This document shows positions 43,557 through 53,912 of a stretch of 64,000 nucleotides of DNA, one piece after another. This stretch comes from Bacteroidia bacterium (lineage in GTDB: Bacteria; Bacteroidota; Bacteroidia; J057). The notes under the pieces were generated by a model that saw only the letters and a program-made list of their open reading frames with translations, did not search any database and was not told the origin of the DNA. A program made the translations under genes and the position numbers. Within the stretch, counting starts at the first letter, position 1; every line of letters begins with the position of its first letter. The stretch spans positions 6,200,001-6,264,000 of the forward strand of contig JAWPMV010000001.1 in assembly GCA_033391075.1 (NCBI GenBank), in the 5' to 3' direction.

Positions 43557-44864
43557 ATGCGTACAGTAGCCTTTCATACTTTGGGTTGCAAGCTCAACTT
43601 CTCTGAAACTTCGGCCATCAGTCGGCAGTTTTATGATGCAGGTTTTAGCAAAAGCTCCTTTTCACAGGCAGCTGACGTATATGTGGTGAATACCTGTTCG
43701 GTAACCGAAAACGCCAATAAAAAATGCCGCAAAATCATCAAACAAGCACTCAAGCATAATCCTCATGCCTATGTCATTGTAGTAGGTTGTTATGCACAGC
43801 TGAAACCCAAAGAGATTTCTGAAATTCCAGGAGTTGATTTGGTATTGGGTGCAGGAGATAAGTTTCGGATTTTTGAGCTGGTTGATGAGTTTTCCAAGGA
43901 AGAAAACCCCTGCGTCTACAATAGCCAGATTACAGAAGTAGATAGCTTTGTTGATGCCTATTCACACGGAGATCGCACACGCTCTTTCCTGAAGATTCAG
44001 GATGGATGTGATTATAAATGTAGCTTTTGTACCATTCCTTTGGCACGTGGAAGAAGCAGAAGTGATACCATTGAGAATATCCTGGCCAATGCACGTAAAT
44101 TGGCTGCTCAGGGAGTTCAGGAGATCGTATTGACAGGGGTAAATATTGGTGATTATGGAAAGGGCCTTGAAAGCAAGGATTCTTTTCTGGATGTGGTCAA
44201 AGCTTTGGATGAAATTGAAGAAGTCTCTCGTTTTCGCATATCCTCTATAGAGCCCAATCTCCTTTCGAATGAGATCATTCAATTCGTAGCCCAGTCCAAA
44301 AGATTTATGCCTCACTTTCATATTCCCCTTCAAAGTGGGAACAATGAATTGCTGGGGAAAATGAGGAGACGCTATCGCAGAGAACTTTATGTAGATAGGG
44401 TAAGCGAAATTAAGCGGCTGATGCCCCATGCCTGTATTGGAGTAGATGTGATTGTTGGTTTCCCAGGCGAAACAGATGACCACTTTGAGGACAGCTATAT
44501 CTTCCTCAATGAGCTTGATATTTCTTATTTACACGTCTTTACCTATTCAGAGCGGGAAAATACATTAGCAGCAGGAATGGAGGGCGTAGTGCCAGTTTCT
44601 GTTCGCCATGAGCGTAGCAAAAGACTGCGCATGCTATCTGATAAGAAAAAGAGATTTTTCTATGAGCAGTATGTAGGGGAGGAGAGACCTATTCTCTTTG
44701 AAGGAGCAGAGGATAAAGGCGCTATGTTTGGATTCACAGACAACTACATCAAGGTCAAAACAGACTTTGATCCTGAAAAGATCAATCAGATCCAGATTTT
44801 TGGAATGGAAGAAGTTAATGCAGAAGGTCTGATGGAGATCAGGAAGCCTGTTGTGCCAGCTTAG
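43557..44864 (+). CDS. mtaB: tRNA t6A37 methylthiotransferase MtaB
   Basis: The 435-residue enzyme adds a methylthio group to t6A at position 37 of tRNAs. Its N-terminal UPF0004 domain begins RTVAFHTLGCKLNFSETSA and carries VVNTCSVT and VVGCYAQ cysteines. The radical-SAM domain has IQDGCDYKCSFCTIP (CxxxCxxC) and a C-terminal TRAM-like segment. The start at 43557 was chosen because the sequence before it comes from the repeat element. Its 3' end overlaps the convergent small gene by 26 bases. Confidence 0.93.
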   Translation: MRTVAFHTLGCKLNFSETSAISRQFYDAGFSKSSFSQAADVYVVNTCSVTENANKKCRKIIKQALKHNPHAYVIVVGCYAQLKPKEISEIPGVDLVLGAGDKFRIFELVDEFSKEENPCVYNSQITEVDSFVDAYSHGDRTRSFLKIQDGCDYKCSFCTIPLARGRSRSDTIENILANARKLAAQGVQEIVLTGVNIGDYGKGLESKDSFLDVVKALDEIEEVSRFRISSIEPNLLSNEIIQFVAQSKRFMPHFHIPLQSGNNELLGKMRRRYRRELYVDRVSEIKRLMPHACIGVDVIVGFPGETDDHFEDSYIFLNELDISYLHVFTYSERENTLAAGMEGVVPVSVRHERSKRLRMLSDKKKRFFYEQYVGEERPILFEGAEDKGAMFGFTDNYIKVKTDFDPEKINQIQIFGMEEVNAEGLMEIRKPVVPA

Positions 44865-45087
44865 CCTGACGAGTTTTATAAAACCAGACTCCCCCTAAAA
44901 CTGCTGCAAATACAAAAGGCATAGCCAGGAGATAGAGAATCCCAAAATTCAAGCCCGTCCCAACGACCAGATTCCCATTTTCATCTGTAGCTGCTGCTGC
45001 TTGCTTACACTGAGAACATTGAGCAAATAGTTCCGCCCCTCTGAAGAGGAGAAGCAGGAGAAGGCTCAAAAAATACTTGATTCTCAT
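44839..45087 (-). CDS. Small exported CxxC membrane protein
   Basis: The 82-residue product (ATG at 45087; an upstream in-frame TTG would add five residues) has a signal peptide (FLSLLLLLLFRGAELFAQ), an immediate CSQCKQAAAATDENGN segment with a CxxC pair, one membrane helix, and a short basic tail. It is the last gene of the respiratory cluster, 24 bases after the DUF420 gene. The position suggests an oxidase assembly or thiol role, but this is inference. Confidence 0.6.
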   Translation of the reverse strand: MRIKYFLSLLLLLLFRGAELFAQCSQCKQAAAATDENGNLVVGTGLNFGILYLLAMPFVFAAVLGGVWFYKTRQAKLAQQAS

Positions 45088-45111
45088 ATCACAAAGGTAC
45101 AAGCTATTCTC

Positions 45112-45663
45112 TTAAAATGGACAAGGGGAGATGAAAAAGTACACCAATACCCCACTTACAGATACATACAACCAAAGCGGAAAGGTAATTCTCGCCAATT
45201 TTCTATGTCTGTCATAGGTTTCACTCAAAGCCCTGAATATAGAAAAGGAGGCAAGTGGAATGATAAATACAGACAATCCAATGTGGGAGATAAGGGTGAA
45301 ATAGTATAAGGCCTTTGGGACTAATCCTTCTGCACAATACACCCTATGCCCTACAGCCAGGTGGTACATAATATAAAAGACAAGAAACAAGGCTGATAGA
45401 CCAAAGGCTGTCAACATAGCGGTTTTATGCGCCTTGATGTTTCTTTGTTTGATAAAGTAAAATCCTGCAAGTAGCAAAACAGATACTGCCGAATTGATAA
45501 TGGCTATGATATCTGAAAGGATGCTGGCATCGAAGCCCATATCCAGTTTTATTCCCAGTCTGGGATTCAAGAGGATGCCTACAATCAGTGGTACTGCGAT
45601 AGAAAGTGTCCAGATGAGTGGGACGTAAACTTTGGGATTATATTTTACTGAGGGAGATTGCAT
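45112..45663 (-). CDS. DUF420 family membrane protein
   Basis: The 183-residue protein has five membrane helices and the DUF420 pattern: GFYFIKQRNIKAHKTAMLTA in the central part and ISHIGLSVFIIPLA. Homologs sit beside cytochrome oxidase genes in Firmicutes and Bacteroidota and are thought to help oxidase assembly (CtaM/YozB group). It lies in the oxidase cluster, 103 bases after the Sco-like gene. Confidence 0.82.
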   Translation of the reverse strand: MQSPSVKYNPKVYVPLIWTLSIAVPLIVGILLNPRLGIKLDMGFDASILSDIIAIINSAVSVLLLAGFYFIKQRNIKAHKTAMLTAFGLSALFLVFYIMYHLAVGHRVYCAEGLVPKALYYFTLISHIGLSVFIIPLASFSIFRALSETYDRHRKLARITFPLWLYVSVSGVLVYFFISPCPF

Positions 45664-45766: not shown

Positions 45767-46429
45767 TTATCTTTTCAATTCCTCCGGATACTCCATCCGA
45801 ATCAGGGCAATGATATCTTCTTGCATCTTGCGTTCGTGGGCGAGATCCGTTCCGATATAGAATTTTCTGAGGCGGCCTTCTTTGTCGAAAAGTCCCACAT
45901 ACTGAGAGGTCTTTTGATAGGCTCCATCTGGTTCATTTCTAAACTTTGGCAGGTCCAAAGCTTTTCCTGCAAAATCATAGATCACAGAATCAGCACCTCG
46001 GAGGGTTAGCCAAAATCGCGAATCCAGATTTTCCAGTTTGTCTCGATACGCTTGGACTGAAGCCAGGCTATCCCCTGTGTTTATATTCACAAAACGGACA
46101 GCGGGCTCTCTTTCCCAATCGAGGTTTTTATAGGTTCTCTGAAGATTTCCGTGAAGCACCCGTGAAAGTGTATCTTCTTCTAAACTGAAGAAGGATACAA
46201 AACAAATCTTGCCGAGGAGATCATCATGTGTGATACTCTCCCCGGCAAGATTTTCAAGGGTAAACTCCGGAAGGCTTCTTATCGTACTATCGCCATTCTC
46301 AACCTGATAAACAAAAGGAACACTCTCTCTCACCGGATGCGAGAAATTGTACAAATACAGGTAGATCAGGATTGGTACAATAAATACAGCGATGATAACC
46401 GTTTTCGCTGCTCCCGGACTTATAGTCAT
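45767..46429 (-). CDS. Sco-like protein lacking copper ligands
   Basis: The 220-residue protein has one N-terminal membrane helix (VIIAVFIVPILIYLYLY) and a thioredoxin-like SCO1/SenC domain. Normal Sco proteins use a CxxxC and a distal His to carry copper to the CuA site. Here the stretch after GKICFVSFF reads SLEEDTLSRVL, with neither Cys at the motif, and the His position reads YQKTSQYVGLFDKEG. All three ligands therefore appear lost. It starts one base after the subunit IV gene ends, so it is clearly part of the oxidase operon. Confidence 0.75.
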   Translation of the reverse strand: MTISPGAAKTVIIAVFIVPILIYLYLYNFSHPVRESVPFVYQVENGDSTIRSLPEFTLENLAGESITHDDLLGKICFVSFFSLEEDTLSRVLHGNLQRTYKNLDWEREPAVRFVNINTGDSLASVQAYRDKLENLDSRFWLTLRGADSVIYDFAGKALDLPKFRNEPDGAYQKTSQYVGLFDKEGRLRKFYIGTDLAHERKMQEDIIALIRMEYPEELKR

Positions 46430-46430
46430 A

Positions 46431-46841
46431 TTAAATTTTTATCTCTTCTGCAGGATCTGTTTCCAGCACTACAGAATGATAACTAATTGCTTCACTAGAT
46501 TGTTCGCCCCAATACGTTCCTTCCCAAACAAGACCGATAATCAACCAAAGGATAAATACAAATGGAATCATAATGGTCCAGGCCAGTCTTTTTACCTCAT
46601 GACCCAGGTGCATAAACTCTGCAACGATCAGGAAGGCTTTGAAGATGGTCAGGATAAAGAAGGTAGCATTCTTGATAGCGATACCGGTTTCAACTCCGAA
46701 ACCCAGCGTATCTACCAGGAACCATTCCCAGGTGAATGCAATTAAAAACTCAAATGCAGTAAGTGCTGTCAGCTGTAATGCTGTTTTTATTATCGATTTA
46801 CGAGCGGATGCTCCTCCATCATTTGCGCTTGCGGATGCCAT
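46431..46841 (-). CDS. Cytochrome c oxidase subunit IV-like protein
   Basis: The 136-residue protein has three predicted helices (residues ~17-38, 53-77, 85-108) and the prokaryotic COX4 pattern (AIKNATFFILTIFKAFLIVA, EFMHLGHEVKRLAWTIMIP). It is an accessory membrane subunit of heme-copper oxidases. It lies 21 bases after the second subunit III gene. Confidence 0.82.
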   Translation of the reverse strand: MASASANDGGASARKSIIKTALQLTALTAFEFLIAFTWEWFLVDTLGFGVETGIAIKNATFFILTIFKAFLIVAEFMHLGHEVKRLAWTIMIPFVFILWLIIGLVWEGTYWGEQSSEAISYHSVVLETDPAEEIKI

Positions 46842-46862: not shown

Positions 46863-47969
46863 TTAGACCAAATAGAAAACTGTAAATACGAATACCCAAA
46901 CCAGGTCTACAAAGTGCCAGTAGAGTCCGATTTTCTCTGTCATCTCATAATGACCTCTACGCTCATAGGTTCCTTTGTTCACATTGATCAATAGGATGAT
47001 GAGCAGAACAACTCCACTAAATACATGGGTTCCGTGGAAGCCTGTAACAAAGAAGAAAAGGTCAGCAAATGCAGGAGGTCCGTATTGATTGGCTTTGAGA
47101 TTTGCTCCTCCATCAGTCATCATCAGTTCATCTCCTTTAAAAGGAGCAAGCATCACATCGACGTTTTTACCGTCCTGCTTAATCTCATATCCATTATTTA
47201 AGCGAAGGCCTGCAATTCCTCCTTCTGTATTCTTTACTGAATAAACCCTTACTCCCAATTTATCATCAAGATTTGGGATGAAGTTTTCCAGCTCTCTGGC
47301 TTCTTTTCCGCTGAGGGCATAAGTCCCTGCATGTGTGTGATGAGCATTTTTAAGAATTGCTTTCACAGCAGCTTCATCATCAATGCTTTTTCCATCAATA
47401 AATGAGAGAGAACTTACACTGGATGCAGAATGATCATCGCCTTCTCCATGAGGGATCAATTCAACATAACTCAATTCTTTGAGGTCCGGTGTATTTTCAC
47501 TGAAGCGCTCGACAGGAACGATGGTAGAACCTGTGGGAGTACCAGAAATGAAGTGATACCACTCATAGGCCTGGCAAGAAAGGAAAGCGGTTCCTCCAAT
47601 GATGGTCCAAAAGACCCATTTGGAAACTTCTTTCTTTGATTTTCTATGTCCCGCTTCCACTGCCAATACCATGGTCACACTACTGATGATCAGGATAAAG
47701 GTCATAAGTCCCACGAATACAAGAGGTGCATCCATATGGAAGAACTCATACAGTATCGGAAAGTGGGTAAAGACGGCTTCCGGATTGGCCCAGGCTAATC
47801 CTTCGGAAGTAGCGCTCAAACGAATAGCGCCGTATGCAATCAAGAGACCGGAAAATGTAAAGGCATCAGAAACGAGGAAAAACCACATCATGAGCTTTCC
47901 GTAGCTCGTGTTGTACATCGGTCGTTCGCCTTCTATCAGTGCCTTTTTATCTACAGTAACGTTTGCCAT
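46863..47969 (-). CDS. Cytochrome c oxidase subunit III with long soluble insertion
   Basis: The 368-residue subunit III shows the usual helices: GKLMMWFFLVSDAFTFSG, DAPLVFVGLMTFILIISSVT, VFWTIIGGTAFLSCQAYEWY, and FVTGFHGTHVFSGVVLLII near the end. Between the third and the FHGTHV helix lies a soluble insertion at about residues 143-300 (roughly 155 residues), rich in Asp, Glu and His. Ordinary subunit III loops here are much shorter. It probably projects to the periplasm. Another subunit III gene precedes it. Confidence 0.85.
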   Translation of the reverse strand: MANVTVDKKALIEGERPMYNTSYGKLMMWFFLVSDAFTFSGLLIAYGAIRLSATSEGLAWANPEAVFTHFPILYEFFHMDAPLVFVGLMTFILIISSVTMVLAVEAGHRKSKKEVSKWVFWTIIGGTAFLSCQAYEWYHFISGTPTGSTIVPVERFSENTPDLKELSYVELIPHGEGDDHSASSVSSLSFIDGKSIDDEAAVKAILKNAHHTHAGTYALSGKEARELENFIPNLDDKLGVRVYSVKNTEGGIAGLRLNNGYEIKQDGKNVDVMLAPFKGDELMMTDGGANLKANQYGPPAFADLFFFVTGFHGTHVFSGVVLLIILLINVNKGTYERRGHYEMTEKIGLYWHFVDLVWVFVFTVFYLV

Positions 47970-48067
47970 GAAGCTAAAATATGCTTTTGAAAATGTGGGT
48001 GCAATTTAATATAAATGCTCAGAATTTCTAGCCTAAGTCACTACAAATAAGCCTTTTGTCTAAGCTT

Positions 48068-48952
48068 TTAAGCTGGATTCTGAGTAATCAATAGAAATAA
48101 GAACAAGTATATCCAGAGTAAGTCAAGAAAGTGCCAGAAAATTGAGGTCATTTGATAGTCCAAAACCTTCGCTTCCAAAGACTTATAGGGTTTAACAAAA
48201 AATTTGGCTGTAAGAAATAAAAAGTATGCAGCCAGCGGCCCTGCAAGTAGCCAGAGTATCCTGACTCCCCATCCCATTCCCGTTGCTTCTTCTGCTCCTT
48301 TTGTTACAGCGACTTCCGATCCTTCGACCAGCCACATTTGGTTGGCCCATTCAGCAACATCAAACTCAAAAATCTGACTGACGATATAGTATTCCGTTGC
48401 CAGAAAAGCTACTAATATAAAGGCTAATCTTGCCTTTTTCGACAAAGTGAATTGCAGCTTATCCCAATGAGGAGTAATCAAGGTTCTGAACATAATCACA
48501 AATAATGCGACTAATCCAGCGATGATATGTGCCCCATGTAGACCTGTGAAAATATAGAAAAAGGACACAGAATTGTCCTGTCTTTCTTTATCCACGAAAT
48601 ACAGGCCACTATCCACCATTTCTTCCCAGGCTCCCCATTGTCCGATTAAGAAGAAAATGCCCAAAACCAGGGTCATTCCCAAGCCTACTAATGCCTGGGT
48701 TTCATTCCTTTTCAGGGACCAAACTGCAAACTGCATGGTCACGCTGCTAAAGAGGATTAAACCCAAATTGGTCCATAAGCTGGGAGGCAGGTCAAAAATA
48801 ATGGGATCAGCAATGAAGGATCGCTGCACCGAGTACGCACTGGTCAGTCCTCCGAAGATCATGATCAATGAGATGATCGACAACCAGAGGGCAAACTTCT
48901 GTGGGTGTATGATGTAGCGTTTTTGATCCATTTCAAGGCCCAATGAACTCAT
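48068..48952 (-). CDS. Cytochrome c oxidase subunit III-like protein
   Basis: The 294-residue membrane protein has the subunit III pattern: FALWLSIISLIMIFGGLTSA, IFTGLHGAHIIAGLVALFV and SIFWHFLDLLWIYLFLF at the end. It lies 47 bases after cyoE and 98 before the second subunit III gene. Two subunit III-like proteins in tandem are usual in Bacteroidota oxidase clusters as I recall them; how they divide the work is not known. Confidence 0.85.
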   Translation of the reverse strand: MSSLGLEMDQKRYIIHPQKFALWLSIISLIMIFGGLTSAYSVQRSFIADPIIFDLPPSLWTNLGLILFSSVTMQFAVWSLKRNETQALVGLGMTLVLGIFFLIGQWGAWEEMVDSGLYFVDKERQDNSVSFFYIFTGLHGAHIIAGLVALFVIMFRTLITPHWDKLQFTLSKKARLAFILVAFLATEYYIVSQIFEFDVAEWANQMWLVEGSEVAVTKGAEEATGMGWGVRILWLLAGPLAAYFLFLTAKFFVKPYKSLEAKVLDYQMTSIFWHFLDLLWIYLFLFLLITQNPA

Positions 48953-50898: not shown

Positions 50899-52776
50899 CT
50901 ATTCGTCTTTCTGTTCTACCTCATCAAGGTTTTCAATCGGAACAGAAGGTGTATCTCTTTTTGGAACGGATGGAGCAGGGAAACCTTCTTCGTATTCCAC
51001 TTCCTCATCAGGAATATGCTGAGGGAGATAGTCTTCTTTGATACCAGGCTTGCTGTATTCGTAAGGTCCACGGTAAACATGTGGGATTTCTCCAGGCCAG
51101 TTTCCGTGTCCAGGATTTCTTGGTGTAGTCCACTCCAATGTATTTGCTTTCCATGGATTCAGTGGCGCTTCCTTACCCCAGAAGATACTGGTAACGAAGT
51201 TGTAAAGGAAGATGAATTGTGAGAATGCACCGATAATCGCAGCAATTGTGATAAACAAACTTAGATCACCGAAGCCTCCCATGAAATCGAAAGCAGTGTA
51301 CTTGTAATAGTGGCGTGCTACTCCTCCCAAGCCCATATAGTGCATAGGGAAGAAGACCATATACAAGGAGATAAATGTCAACCAGAAGTGAATATATCCC
51401 AAACGTTTGTTCATCATACGACCAAACATTTTCGGGAACCACTGATAGATACCGGCAAAGAATCCGAAGGCAGATGCACTACCCATCACAAGGTGGAAGT
51501 GAGCCGTTACGAAATAGGTATCGTGAAGCGGTATATCCAATGCAGCATTACCCAACCAGATACCGGTGATACCTCCCGTGATAAAGAAGGATACCAAACC
51601 AATCGCAAAGAGCATCGGCGGGTTAAACTGTATGTTACCTTTCCACAAGGTCGTTATATAGTTAAAGGCCTTGATCGCCGAGGGCACCGCTATCACCAGC
51701 GTAAAGAGCATGAATATCGTCCCCAGGAAGGGATTCATACCGGTTACGAACATGTGGTGGGCCCATACAATAAAGGACAGTACTGCAATTGCAAGCATGG
51801 AGAGTACCATCGCGCGATATCCGAAGATAGGTTTACGCGAGTGTACAGATATAATTTCAGAAGAAATACCCAGGGCAGGGAGAAGTACAATGTATACCTC
51901 GGGGTGGCCCAGGAACCAGAACAAATGCTGGTATAGAATAGGGCTACCTCCCTGATAGTGGAGCAATTCACCTCCTATAAATATGTCAGATAGATAAAAA
52001 CTGGTACCTGCCAGTCGGTCAAACATCAACAGCAAAGCTGCAGAGAAAAGAACCGGGAAAGAAAGTACTCCCAAAATCGCTGTCAGGAAGAATGCCCATA
52101 CAGTCAGAGGAAGTTTGTACATATCCATCCCCTGGGTACGCAGGTTCAATACAGTTGTGATATAGTTGATACCTCCTGTCAGAGAAGACACAATGAAAAG
52201 TGTCATAGAGATCAACCAGAGTGTCATCCCTGTACCTGAACCGGACATGGCCTGAGGCAATGCACTCAAGGGAGGATAAATCGTCCATCCTCCAGATGCA
52301 GGACCGGTTTCAATAAAGAGAGAGCCCAGCATGATCACAGAAGAGGCAAAGAAGAACCAGTAAGAAAGCATATTGATAAAGCCGGAAGCCATATCTCTTG
52401 CTCCAATCTGAAGTGGAATCAGATAGTTACTAAAGGTTCCACTCAAACCAGCCGTCAATACAAAGAATACCATGAAGGTACCATGCATAGTAACCAGTGC
52501 GAGGTAGAATTCAGGATTGATCTGACCTCCTTCACCCCATTTTCCAAGAAGGGTTTCCAGGAAAGGGAAAGAAGTCTCAGGAAAAGCCAACTGCAGACGG
52601 AATAGCGTTGACATGAAAATCCCGAAGATTGCCATGATGATCCCCGTGATCAGGAACTGCTTCGCAATTGTCTTATGGTCCGTACTGAACACATAAGTTG
52701 TCAGGAAGCTTCCATGATGATGATCATGGTGATCGTGATGATCATCTGTGTGCGTATCGTGTGCAACTGCAGACAT
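50899..52776 (-). CDS. Cytochrome c oxidase subunit I
   Basis: The 625-residue catalytic subunit reduces oxygen and pumps protons. It contains LVTMHGTFMVFFVLTAGLSG (low-spin heme region), FWFLGHPEVYIVLLPALGIS with the CuB His, the cross-linking Tyr and the proton-channel Glu of the A1 type, VWAHHMFVTGMNPF (CuB His pair), and DTYFVTAHFHLVMGSASAFG (heme ligands). A His/Asp-rich stretch follows the start (DTHTDDHHDHHDHHHG). It lies 59 bases after the subunit II gene. It is an aa3-type oxidase, given ctaA nearby. Confidence 0.96.
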   Translation of the reverse strand: MSAVAHDTHTDDHHDHHDHHHGSFLTTYVFSTDHKTIAKQFLITGIIMAIFGIFMSTLFRLQLAFPETSFPFLETLLGKWGEGGQINPEFYLALVTMHGTFMVFFVLTAGLSGTFSNYLIPLQIGARDMASGFINMLSYWFFFASSVIMLGSLFIETGPASGGWTIYPPLSALPQAMSGSGTGMTLWLISMTLFIVSSLTGGINYITTVLNLRTQGMDMYKLPLTVWAFFLTAILGVLSFPVLFSAALLLMFDRLAGTSFYLSDIFIGGELLHYQGGSPILYQHLFWFLGHPEVYIVLLPALGISSEIISVHSRKPIFGYRAMVLSMLAIAVLSFIVWAHHMFVTGMNPFLGTIFMLFTLVIAVPSAIKAFNYITTLWKGNIQFNPPMLFAIGLVSFFITGGITGIWLGNAALDIPLHDTYFVTAHFHLVMGSASAFGFFAGIYQWFPKMFGRMMNKRLGYIHFWLTFISLYMVFFPMHYMGLGGVARHYYKYTAFDFMGGFGDLSLFITIAAIIGAFSQFIFLYNFVTSIFWGKEAPLNPWKANTLEWTTPRNPGHGNWPGEIPHVYRGPYEYSKPGIKEDYLPQHIPDEEVEYEEGFPAPSVPKRDTPSVPIENLDEVEQKDE

Positions 52777-52835: not shown

Positions 52836-53912
52836 TTATTGATTCATACTTAGGGTTTCAGCTTCTTCAGCGAAGGCAGCAGCTACGTCTTCAAAATCCT
52901 TGTCTGTCAGTCCAAGCGCCATTGCATTTTGCTTAAAGTAAGAAGTCTTACTGGCCAACCAGGAATTGAACTCTTCTTTACTTACCACTTTGATTACTCT
53001 TCTCATATTCCAGTGTCCTCCCCCGCAAATCTGCTGGCAAGACATTTCATAATTGAAGTCAGGATTGTTGGTACGCTTACGCATCTCAGTGGTAGTGAGG
53101 GTAGGCGTAAAACGGAAGCTCGTAGGCATACCCGGAACAGCATCCATTTTCACCCGAAAGTGAGCAAGGGTAGCACTATGGAGTACATCTCTTGCGCGGA
53201 TTTGAAGGTCTATGCTATTGTTTACGGGGAAATAAACCGTATCTGAACCTGCAAGTACAACATCATCAAAAGCATATTTGTCATTGACGTTGAATCCAAC
53301 CTCATTGGTACCCGGTTTGATGAAACCAACTTTAGTTTCTCCAAACTGACCATCAGGACCTGGATATCTGTACGTCCAATCAAACTGCTTTCCTACTACT
53401 TCTATAGAAATTTCACCGGGCTTTGGATCGCCCATGGTGATGTCATTCCACACGATGATTCCCTTCCCTACCAACAAAGTCATAACAATTGCAGGTACAC
53501 CTGTCCAGAGGTACTCCAATTTGTTGTTGTGTGGGTAGTACAGGCCTTTGCGCCCTTCAACTCCTCTGTATTTCCAGGAAAACCAGAAAAGGAGGCTATT
53601 GGTAACGAGCACAACCAGGAAAGTAACCCAGATGGTGTTCCACATCATGCTATCCAACGCAACTCCATGCTCGGAAGCAGGATTGTGAAGCAGGATCATT
53701 TTGGGATACCATTTCACCATGGAAACTGTTGCCAGAGCCACTCCGCCAATTAAGAAAACCATGAAAAGGCCTCCATTTAGCAGGTTACGGTTCCAGGTTT
53801 TGAATGGGTCGATGTCTTTGAGCCTTACCACGAGGTAGAGGTTGACAAAAACCAACAAGACCACAAACACCAACAGGCCCTGAATTATACTTATGATACT
53901 TTGCGAATCCAT
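52836..53912 (-). CDS. Cytochrome c oxidase subunit II
   Basis: The 358-residue subunit has two long N-terminal membrane helices plus a third hydrophobic stretch, then the periplasmic CuA cupredoxin domain. It shows RDVLHSATLAHFRVKMDAVP with one CuA His, and MSCQQICGGGHWNMRR with the two Cys, His and Met. No fused cytochrome c domain is present. The electron donor is probably the ActA or ActE heme domain of alternative complex III, or a separate cytochrome. It begins 65 bases after actF. Confidence 0.93.
   Translation of the reverse strand: MDSQSIISIIQGLLVFVVLLVFVNLYLVVRLKDIDPFKTWNRNLLNGGLFMVFLIGGVALATVSMVKWYPKMILLHNPASEHGVALDSMMWNTIWVTFLVVLVTNSLLFWFSWKYRGVEGRKGLYYPHNNKLEYLWTGVPAIVMTLLVGKGIIVWNDITMGDPKPGEISIEVVGKQFDWTYRYPGPDGQFGETKVGFIKPGTNEVGFNVNDKYAFDDVVLAGSDTVYFPVNNSIDLQIRARDVLHSATLAHFRVKMDAVPGMPTSFRFTPTLTTTEMRKRTNNPDFNYEMSCQQICGGGHWNMRRVIKVVSKEEFNSWLASKTSYFKQNAMALGLTDKDFEDVAAAFAEEAETLSMNQ

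Follow-up and report, generated by a model that had tools for sequence, protein, structure and literature searches.

We find that the gene lying directly behind cox4 in the cytochrome oxidase operon of the window (the whole stretch of DNA analysed here, 64,000 nucleotides in length) encodes a protein that, to judge from its sequence, descends from Sco but has given up all three copper ligands. The initial annotation had treated this loss as local; our census of the same operon slot finds it recurring across the class Bacteroidia. Our best guess is that a ligandless Sco would act as a structural chaperone, with the copper chemistry left to intact Sco proteins encoded elsewhere.

A Sco-type protein and its missing ligands

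The features concerned, in window coordinates and with their evidence in brackets, are these.

45767..46429, minus strand: ligandless Sco paralogue, 220 aa (sequence, Pfam, profile and model)
46340..46417, minus strand: predicted N-terminal anchor helix, residues 5-30 (AlphaFold2 helix, presumed to insert into the membrane)
46163..46177, minus strand: codons 85-89, E85 to S89, where CxxxC would be expected (alignment with intact Sco)
45908..45910, minus strand: Thr codon 174, where the copper-binding His would be expected (alignment; 8 of 11 family copies covering this position have Thr)
46431..46841, minus strand: cox4, cytochrome oxidase subunit IV, one base upstream of the ligandless Sco gene (PF03626, 38.1 bits)
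45112..45663, minus strand: DUF420/CtaM-like membrane protein, next downstream of the ligandless Sco gene (PF04238, 140.7 bits)
44839..45102, minus strand: small QCxxC protein (QC..CK in 11 of 11 family members aligned)
52836..53912, minus strand: COX2, CuA motif CQQICGGGHWNM intact as read by eye (sole PF00116 match in the genome)
50899..52776, minus strand: COX1 (PF00115, 459 bits)
46863..48952, minus strand: two subunit III genes, 46863-47969 and 48068-48952 (PF00510)

The same-strand run comprises ACIII genes, cox2, cox1, two heme a genes, two subunit III genes and cox4, and continues through the ligandless Sco, whose ORF starts one base past the cox4 stop codon, to DUF420 and then the small QCxxC protein. 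The names ctaA, ctaB and those of the remaining act genes are putative and given from sequence; the large ACIII subunit was identified by its match to 6btm chain B.

The initial annotation had placed the loss of the copper-binding residues at FSLEED (46172-46189, minus strand; residues 81-86) and the replacement of the distal His in the stretch YQKTSQYVG. Both readings are borne out by alignment with intact Sco proteins, which puts the two Cys positions at E85 and S89, and the His position at T174, which falls inside that stretch, eight residues ahead of the conserved D182. The only cysteine of the window protein is C76, which is not conserved across the family, and its histidines are at 31, 68, 93 and 198. 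A replacement copper site was sought in the family alignment and no family-wide one was found: no column holds Cys or His in at least 5 of the 12 members, bar one that has H in 7/12 and R in the window protein. We therefore regard it as very unlikely that copper is held by other residues, or that the protein serves a redox or stress-defence function of the kind proposed for plant HCC2, even though HCC2 is reported (PMC6307045) to rescue a sco2 sod1 double mutant of yeast from its oxidative-stress phenotype.

Single-sequence searches do not settle the protein's origin. SCO1-SenC scores 12.2 bits (cut-off 22.8) and AhpC-TSA 17.8 bits (cut-off 26), both falling short; over 12 family members, at E up to 0.01, AhpC-TSA matches five and SCO1-SenC three; and neither phmmer of the window protein against the PDB nor a scan of genome contigs with this one protein gave a useful match. 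Taken at face value, the better AhpC-TSA figures would favour some other thioredoxin-like family (ResA/CcmG or a peroxiredoxin) that was never a Sco, a reading we find scarcely credible in the light of profile, model and neighbourhood. Aligned by hhalign with 13 intact Bacteroidota Sco proteins, the 12-member family profile gives a probability of 99.9% and an E-value of 8.5e-38 over 214 columns, and in the sister families an intact Sco stands behind cox4 in 8/9 genomes.

The AlphaFold2 model (mean pLDDT 81.2, pTM 0.74) predicts a helix over residues 5-30 followed by a thioredoxin-like domain, in keeping with the suggestion that fold and anchor, like the operon position, have been retained. The structural comparison with Sco1 that the initial annotation had proposed returns Sco chains at ranks 1-6 and 9-12, led by 4hde (Z 18.6, rmsd 2.9, 164 residues aligned) and 1xzo (Z 18.1, rmsd 2.5, 159 aligned), with yeast Sco1 at Z 17.6, human SCO1 at 17.1 and ResA from 15.6. 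The alignment behind this model contained intact Sco proteins, which favours a Sco-like result; fold and sequence are therefore not two independent lines of evidence.

ResA/CcmG proteins share the thioredoxin-like fold, are the next best structural match after Sco and use CxxC, a motif that is absent from the window protein with its one Cys; as for an AhpC/TSA peroxiredoxin, neither a score over the Pfam cut-off nor a conserved peroxidatic Cys is found. By descent and predicted fold, then, the window protein is a Sco paralogue.

Ligand loss in the family and across Bacteroidia

The protein is encoded in all 13 genomes examined from the window's family, and the loss is conserved among them: CxxxC is absent from 12/12 full-length copies and from the 13th, an N-terminal fragment read for CxxxC only. 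With 12 of 12 full-length members lacking CxxxC, the loss is not due to chance or error. The replacements vary, with E, D, Q, P, V or T aligned at the first Cys position, S, D, K, N, L, T or V at the second, and E, R or A at the His position where it is not Thr. In the sister families of the order, a Sco with both motifs is found in 9/9 genomes, behind cox4 in eight and with DUF420 after it in six. Since these sister-family genomes keep an intact Sco throughout, ligand loss on the branch that gave rise to the window's family is the simplest reading.

Within the family the ligandless gene lies directly behind cox4 in 10/13 genomes, and in eight, the window's included, it is the only copy found there. 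Genome G002 carries a tandem pair: behind cox4 come the ligandless Sco and an intact one, and after these DUF420 and the small protein. G001 has such a pair too, but CxxxC and His are missing from its second copy (L047:1178-1864) as well, leaving both operon copies ligandless. In genus g9 (G008, G011 and G012) an intact Sco adjoins DUF420 and the ligandless gene is away from both cox4 and DUF420, for example at L050:8116-8886 and L051:4317-5036; with three of 13 genomes arranged in this way, linkage to the operon is not obligatory.

Of 139 genomes spread over the class, 127 have a match to DUF420 (PF04238), and 119 regions upstream of it were taken from 118 of those 127. Four genomes of the window's family, three of a family we label f47 and two with cut matches are outside this set; as the three f47 genomes are all deficient, the census undercounts deficiency. 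No cox4 lies within the stretch in 31 of the 119 regions, which gives 88 genomes with a readable slot between cox4 and DUF420 (CtaM). Scored strictly (CxxxC within the span where it belongs; His with Asp or Asn eight residues further on, a spacing rule that makes the His calls rougher than the CxxxC calls), these 88 comprise 48 with a single intact Sco, 22 with a single deficient copy, 16 with a deficient-plus-intact pair and 2 with no Sco. A deficient copy thus occupies the slot in 38 of the 88 sampled genomes. CxxxC is missing from 16 of the 22 single deficient copies and from the first copy in 14 of the 16 pairs; the remainder (6 and 2, respectively) keep CxxxC and lack the His, the class into which the slots of G106 and G085 fall. 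The notion of a family-only oddity, suggested by 30 loci that were biased towards intact Sco, is ruled out by this slot census.

A second set consists of 75 named loci (80, less five without a readable cox4), rich in Flavobacteriaceae since they were fetched by DUF420 similarity. Two copies are present in 61, a single deficient copy in 10 (G010 and G007 of the window's family among them) and a single intact copy in 4; a deficient-plus-intact pair is seen in 60/75, 49 of these titled Flavobacteriaceae, and every readable locus so titled (50/50) has two Sco copies. Over all loci there are 79 two-copy slots, of which 77 have a deficient copy followed by an intact one; the other two are L143, with a truncated second ORF, and G001, with both copies deficient. 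Three MAG contigs labelled Bifidobacterium breve, Rhodobacter and Lentimicrobium (L108, L125 and L154) also carry the Flavobacteriaceae-type two-copy slot and are likely to be mis-binned or mislabelled; the slot-1 protein of L154 shares 96% identity with its equivalent in a Flavobacterium MAG. In four Cytophagales-type operons (L116, L128, L151 and L169) a shortened ligandless Sco-like ORF of 151-181 aa sits between cox4 and DUF420.

By profile and predicted structure the flavobacterial slot-1 protein is a Sco, although family libraries overlook it: with E up to 0.01 allowed, the Sco models of Pfam and NCBIfam recognise not one of 33 aligned ligandless copies. Their profile nonetheless aligns with intact Sco at a probability of 98.9% and with the window's family at 98.6%, and a model of the Flavobacterium limi protein built from an alignment of ligandless copies only (pLDDT 87.6) finds Sco as its best structural matches (4hde, Z 15.6; 1xzo, Z 14.8), with Sco, peroxiredoxins and others tied at 12.7 and below.

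Family f47, which by sequence includes Pedobacter (97% identity to a Pedobacter terrae copy), offers a graded series, with one genus intact (1/1) and two in which no ligand is left (5/5 and 2/2); an intact Sco is found elsewhere in 14/14 of its genomes. In a further genus, g97 (L211, L212, L214-L217), CxxxC is kept and Tyr takes the place of the copper His in 6/6, an apparent intermediate.

A quick maximum-likelihood tree of 129 proteins requires at least six changes between intact and deficient states, although its strongly supported branches alone force far fewer (two for the intact group). In it, 12 copies of the window's family form one group (support 99), the f47 copies another (99) in which intact members stand with His-less and fully ligandless ones, and six further deficient copies are nested as a third set in a group of intact copies (95); deep placements are unsure because of long branches. 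The direction of change was not taken from the tree, and for the window's family is suggested by the contrast with its sister families.

Purifying selection acts on ligandless copies in relatives of the window protein, nearly as strongly as on intact Sco. Over 62 close pairs of ligandless copies from named loci, mostly Flavobacteriaceae with four from Pedobacter, dN/dS has a median of 0.102 and a maximum of 0.244, against a median of 0.119 over 98 pairs of intact copies; in 41 matched pairs the values are 0.102 (deficient) and 0.075 (intact), so that deficient copies are slightly less constrained. Pairs were kept at more than 55% identity and a dS of 0.1-2.0 after a shared-word filter, and are not independent since they share species. 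The one pair tried from the window's own family was saturated at synonymous sites, and so gives no ratio.

This selection, together with ORFs that are intact in 12/12 full-length family members, rules out a sequencing error or pseudogene. It also makes it extremely unlikely that the ligandless Sco is a non-functional remnant on its way out, as its divergent sequence and sub-threshold SCO1-SenC score might otherwise suggest.

Copper supply and the proposed role of a ligandless Sco

The search for a second, canonical Sco that the initial annotation had recommended turned up four intact Sco genes in the window genome, all outside the oxidase slot. Three of them (L056, L057 and L059) stand beside a YHYH protein and a protein matching MORN_2, and the fourth (L058) beside a cytochrome c; possibly these are Sco modules for other cuproproteins. 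The same genome has a single COX2 match, with its CuA motif intact, and no match to PCuAC; given these and the four intact Sco genes, it is most likely the dispersed intact Sco proteins that deliver copper. An intact Sco with both motifs seen, next door or elsewhere, is present in 11/13 family genomes; in G005 it appears only as a contig-edge fragment carrying the His part, and none was found in G004, a 91% complete MAG of 1670 contigs.

Beyond the family, all 22 census genomes with only a deficient copy in the slot have a Sco with CxxxC and His elsewhere. Among 28 intact-slot controls (30 of 50 genomes scored as single intact, less two moved to the deficient class), a second Sco match lies elsewhere in 17 and is lacking in 11, second copies here being counted by eye as matches in the search listing, with motifs not read. 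With kinship ignored, 22/22 versus 17/28 gives a Fisher p of 0.001; three genomes (G135, G150 and G083) that have no cox4 within the stretch and a Sco-like ORF without CxxxC were left out of this comparison.

The initial annotation had also suggested that copper delivery might have shifted to the small CxxC protein at 44839. This protein (QCxxCK) is conserved in the window's family and the sister families and has no Pfam match over cut-off. It is ruled out as a substitute copper donor, since it occurs alongside intact Sco, in G002, G008, G011, G012 and other families of the order, which makes it a standing companion.

Synthesising these findings, we propose, at about even odds, that a Sco paralogue without copper or thiol chemistry serves as a membrane-anchored, copper-independent assembly factor for the oxidase of its own operon. 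On the simplest account, a duplication would have been followed by a division of labour, in which one Sco keeps the copper and thiol chemistry and the cox4-adjacent copy keeps another job, for which anchor and domain are required and the ligands are dispensable. We suggest that, during construction of the CuA domain, the ligandless Sco would most likely dock on COX2, on the CtaM-like DUF420 protein or on both, these being put forward as partners because they are operon neighbours, and that an intact Sco would carry out the metal and disulfide chemistry, its gene lying elsewhere in the genome or, in other lineages, next in the operon. That a second, copper-free Sco job may exist at all is hinted at by the recurrence of ligand loss, usually with an intact Sco remaining; the docking partner, the copper-independent action, the division of labour and the choice of factor over subunit are inferred.

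A broader version, in which the cox4-adjacent Sco repeatedly became a copper-free structural component of the oxidase across Bacteroidia, present at 50/50 readable Flavobacteriaceae loci and possibly a subunit of an ACIII-oxidase supercomplex, we hold only tentatively. In its strict form, that the ligandless Sco is no transient assembly factor but a lasting accessory subunit, belonging to the oxidase or to the ACIII-oxidase supercomplex and anchored on the periplasmic side close to the CuA domain, we consider it unlikely. Its position directly after cox4 with ACIII genes upstream would suit a subunit, and the shrinkage of the four Cytophagales-type ORFs is easier to reconcile with a structural piece than with a chaperone; yet the gene is away from cox4 in genus g9, and a phmmer search of the PDB with a Flavobacterium relative found no relevant chain, the oxidase half of the F. 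johnsoniae complex perhaps not being deposited as chains.

It is distinctly unlikely, in our judgement, that the ligandless Sco is instead the dead partner of an intact Sco, acting on it as an adaptor or regulator by positioning or inhibiting it, in the manner of many pseudo-enzymes. Deficient-plus-intact pairs are common (16/88 in the census, 60/75 named loci), and human SCO2 is cited in PMC3971200 as a thiol-disulfide oxidoreductase acting on SCO1; but with the intact Sco outside the slot in the window genome and 22 census genomes, a fixed co-encoded pair is not conserved. Returning to the copper-independent assembly factor, Flavobacterium johnsoniae is genetically tractable and its ACIII has been isolated in complex with cytochrome aa3 (PMC8552683), such that this role is directly testable there.

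Relation to known Sco and copper-handling proteins

It is a long-running question whether Sco delivers copper, reduces the COX2 thiols or does something else. Bacteroidia present several parallel cases in which selection retains the gene in the oxidase operon after its chemistry has gone; if the broader version above is true, such lineages would be natural ‘separation-of-function’ experiments for a second, ligand-independent Sco job. There is also a warning for annotation, in that the Sco-type gene in these operons is often without a copper site, and that the flavobacterial copy is missed by Pfam and NCBIfam. Our literature search, with most subscription journals outside its scope, found no report of a ligandless Sco in bacteria.

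With the copper-binding Sco1/SenC proteins (BsSco, yeast Sco1 and human SCO1) the window protein shares fold, anchor, operon link to the oxidase and, by profile, descent; it differs in lacking CxxxC and the distal His, and in falling below the single-sequence Pfam cut-off. CtaM, a DUF420 protein, is proposed in Bacillus subtilis to export copper that is then bound by Sco (PMC13344008 for both points). Its counterpart is the direct neighbour of the window gene but a different protein, whose copper a ligandless Sco could not accept via the known site. Across 13 family members this DUF420 protein has invariant His 79, 101, 127 and 153 and invariant Cys 110 and 181, which are candidate metal ligands for the copper role proposed for CtaM.

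The closest known case, by analogy, is plant HCC2. Arabidopsis HCC2 and its higher-plant counterparts are Sco paralogues that lack the two Cys and the His (PMC3971200), and the same organism retains HCC1, a Sco with its ligands intact (PMC3971200 and PMC6696091). A 2019 review cites the yeast rescue as complementation, calls the activity of a ligand-free HCC2 very surprising and asks what the other role might be; the same review describes HCC2 as non-essential for oxidase activity (PMC6696091). The precedent therefore supports a ligand-free function and not oxidase assembly as such, the rescue being one of oxidative stress. HCC2 differs from the window protein in being mitochondrial, in lying outside an oxidase operon and in having five other cysteines after the signal peptide against one, and an independent origin is assumed. 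In what defines the plant case, a Sco fold (here predicted), none of the three ligands and an intact Sco elsewhere in the genome, the two are alike.
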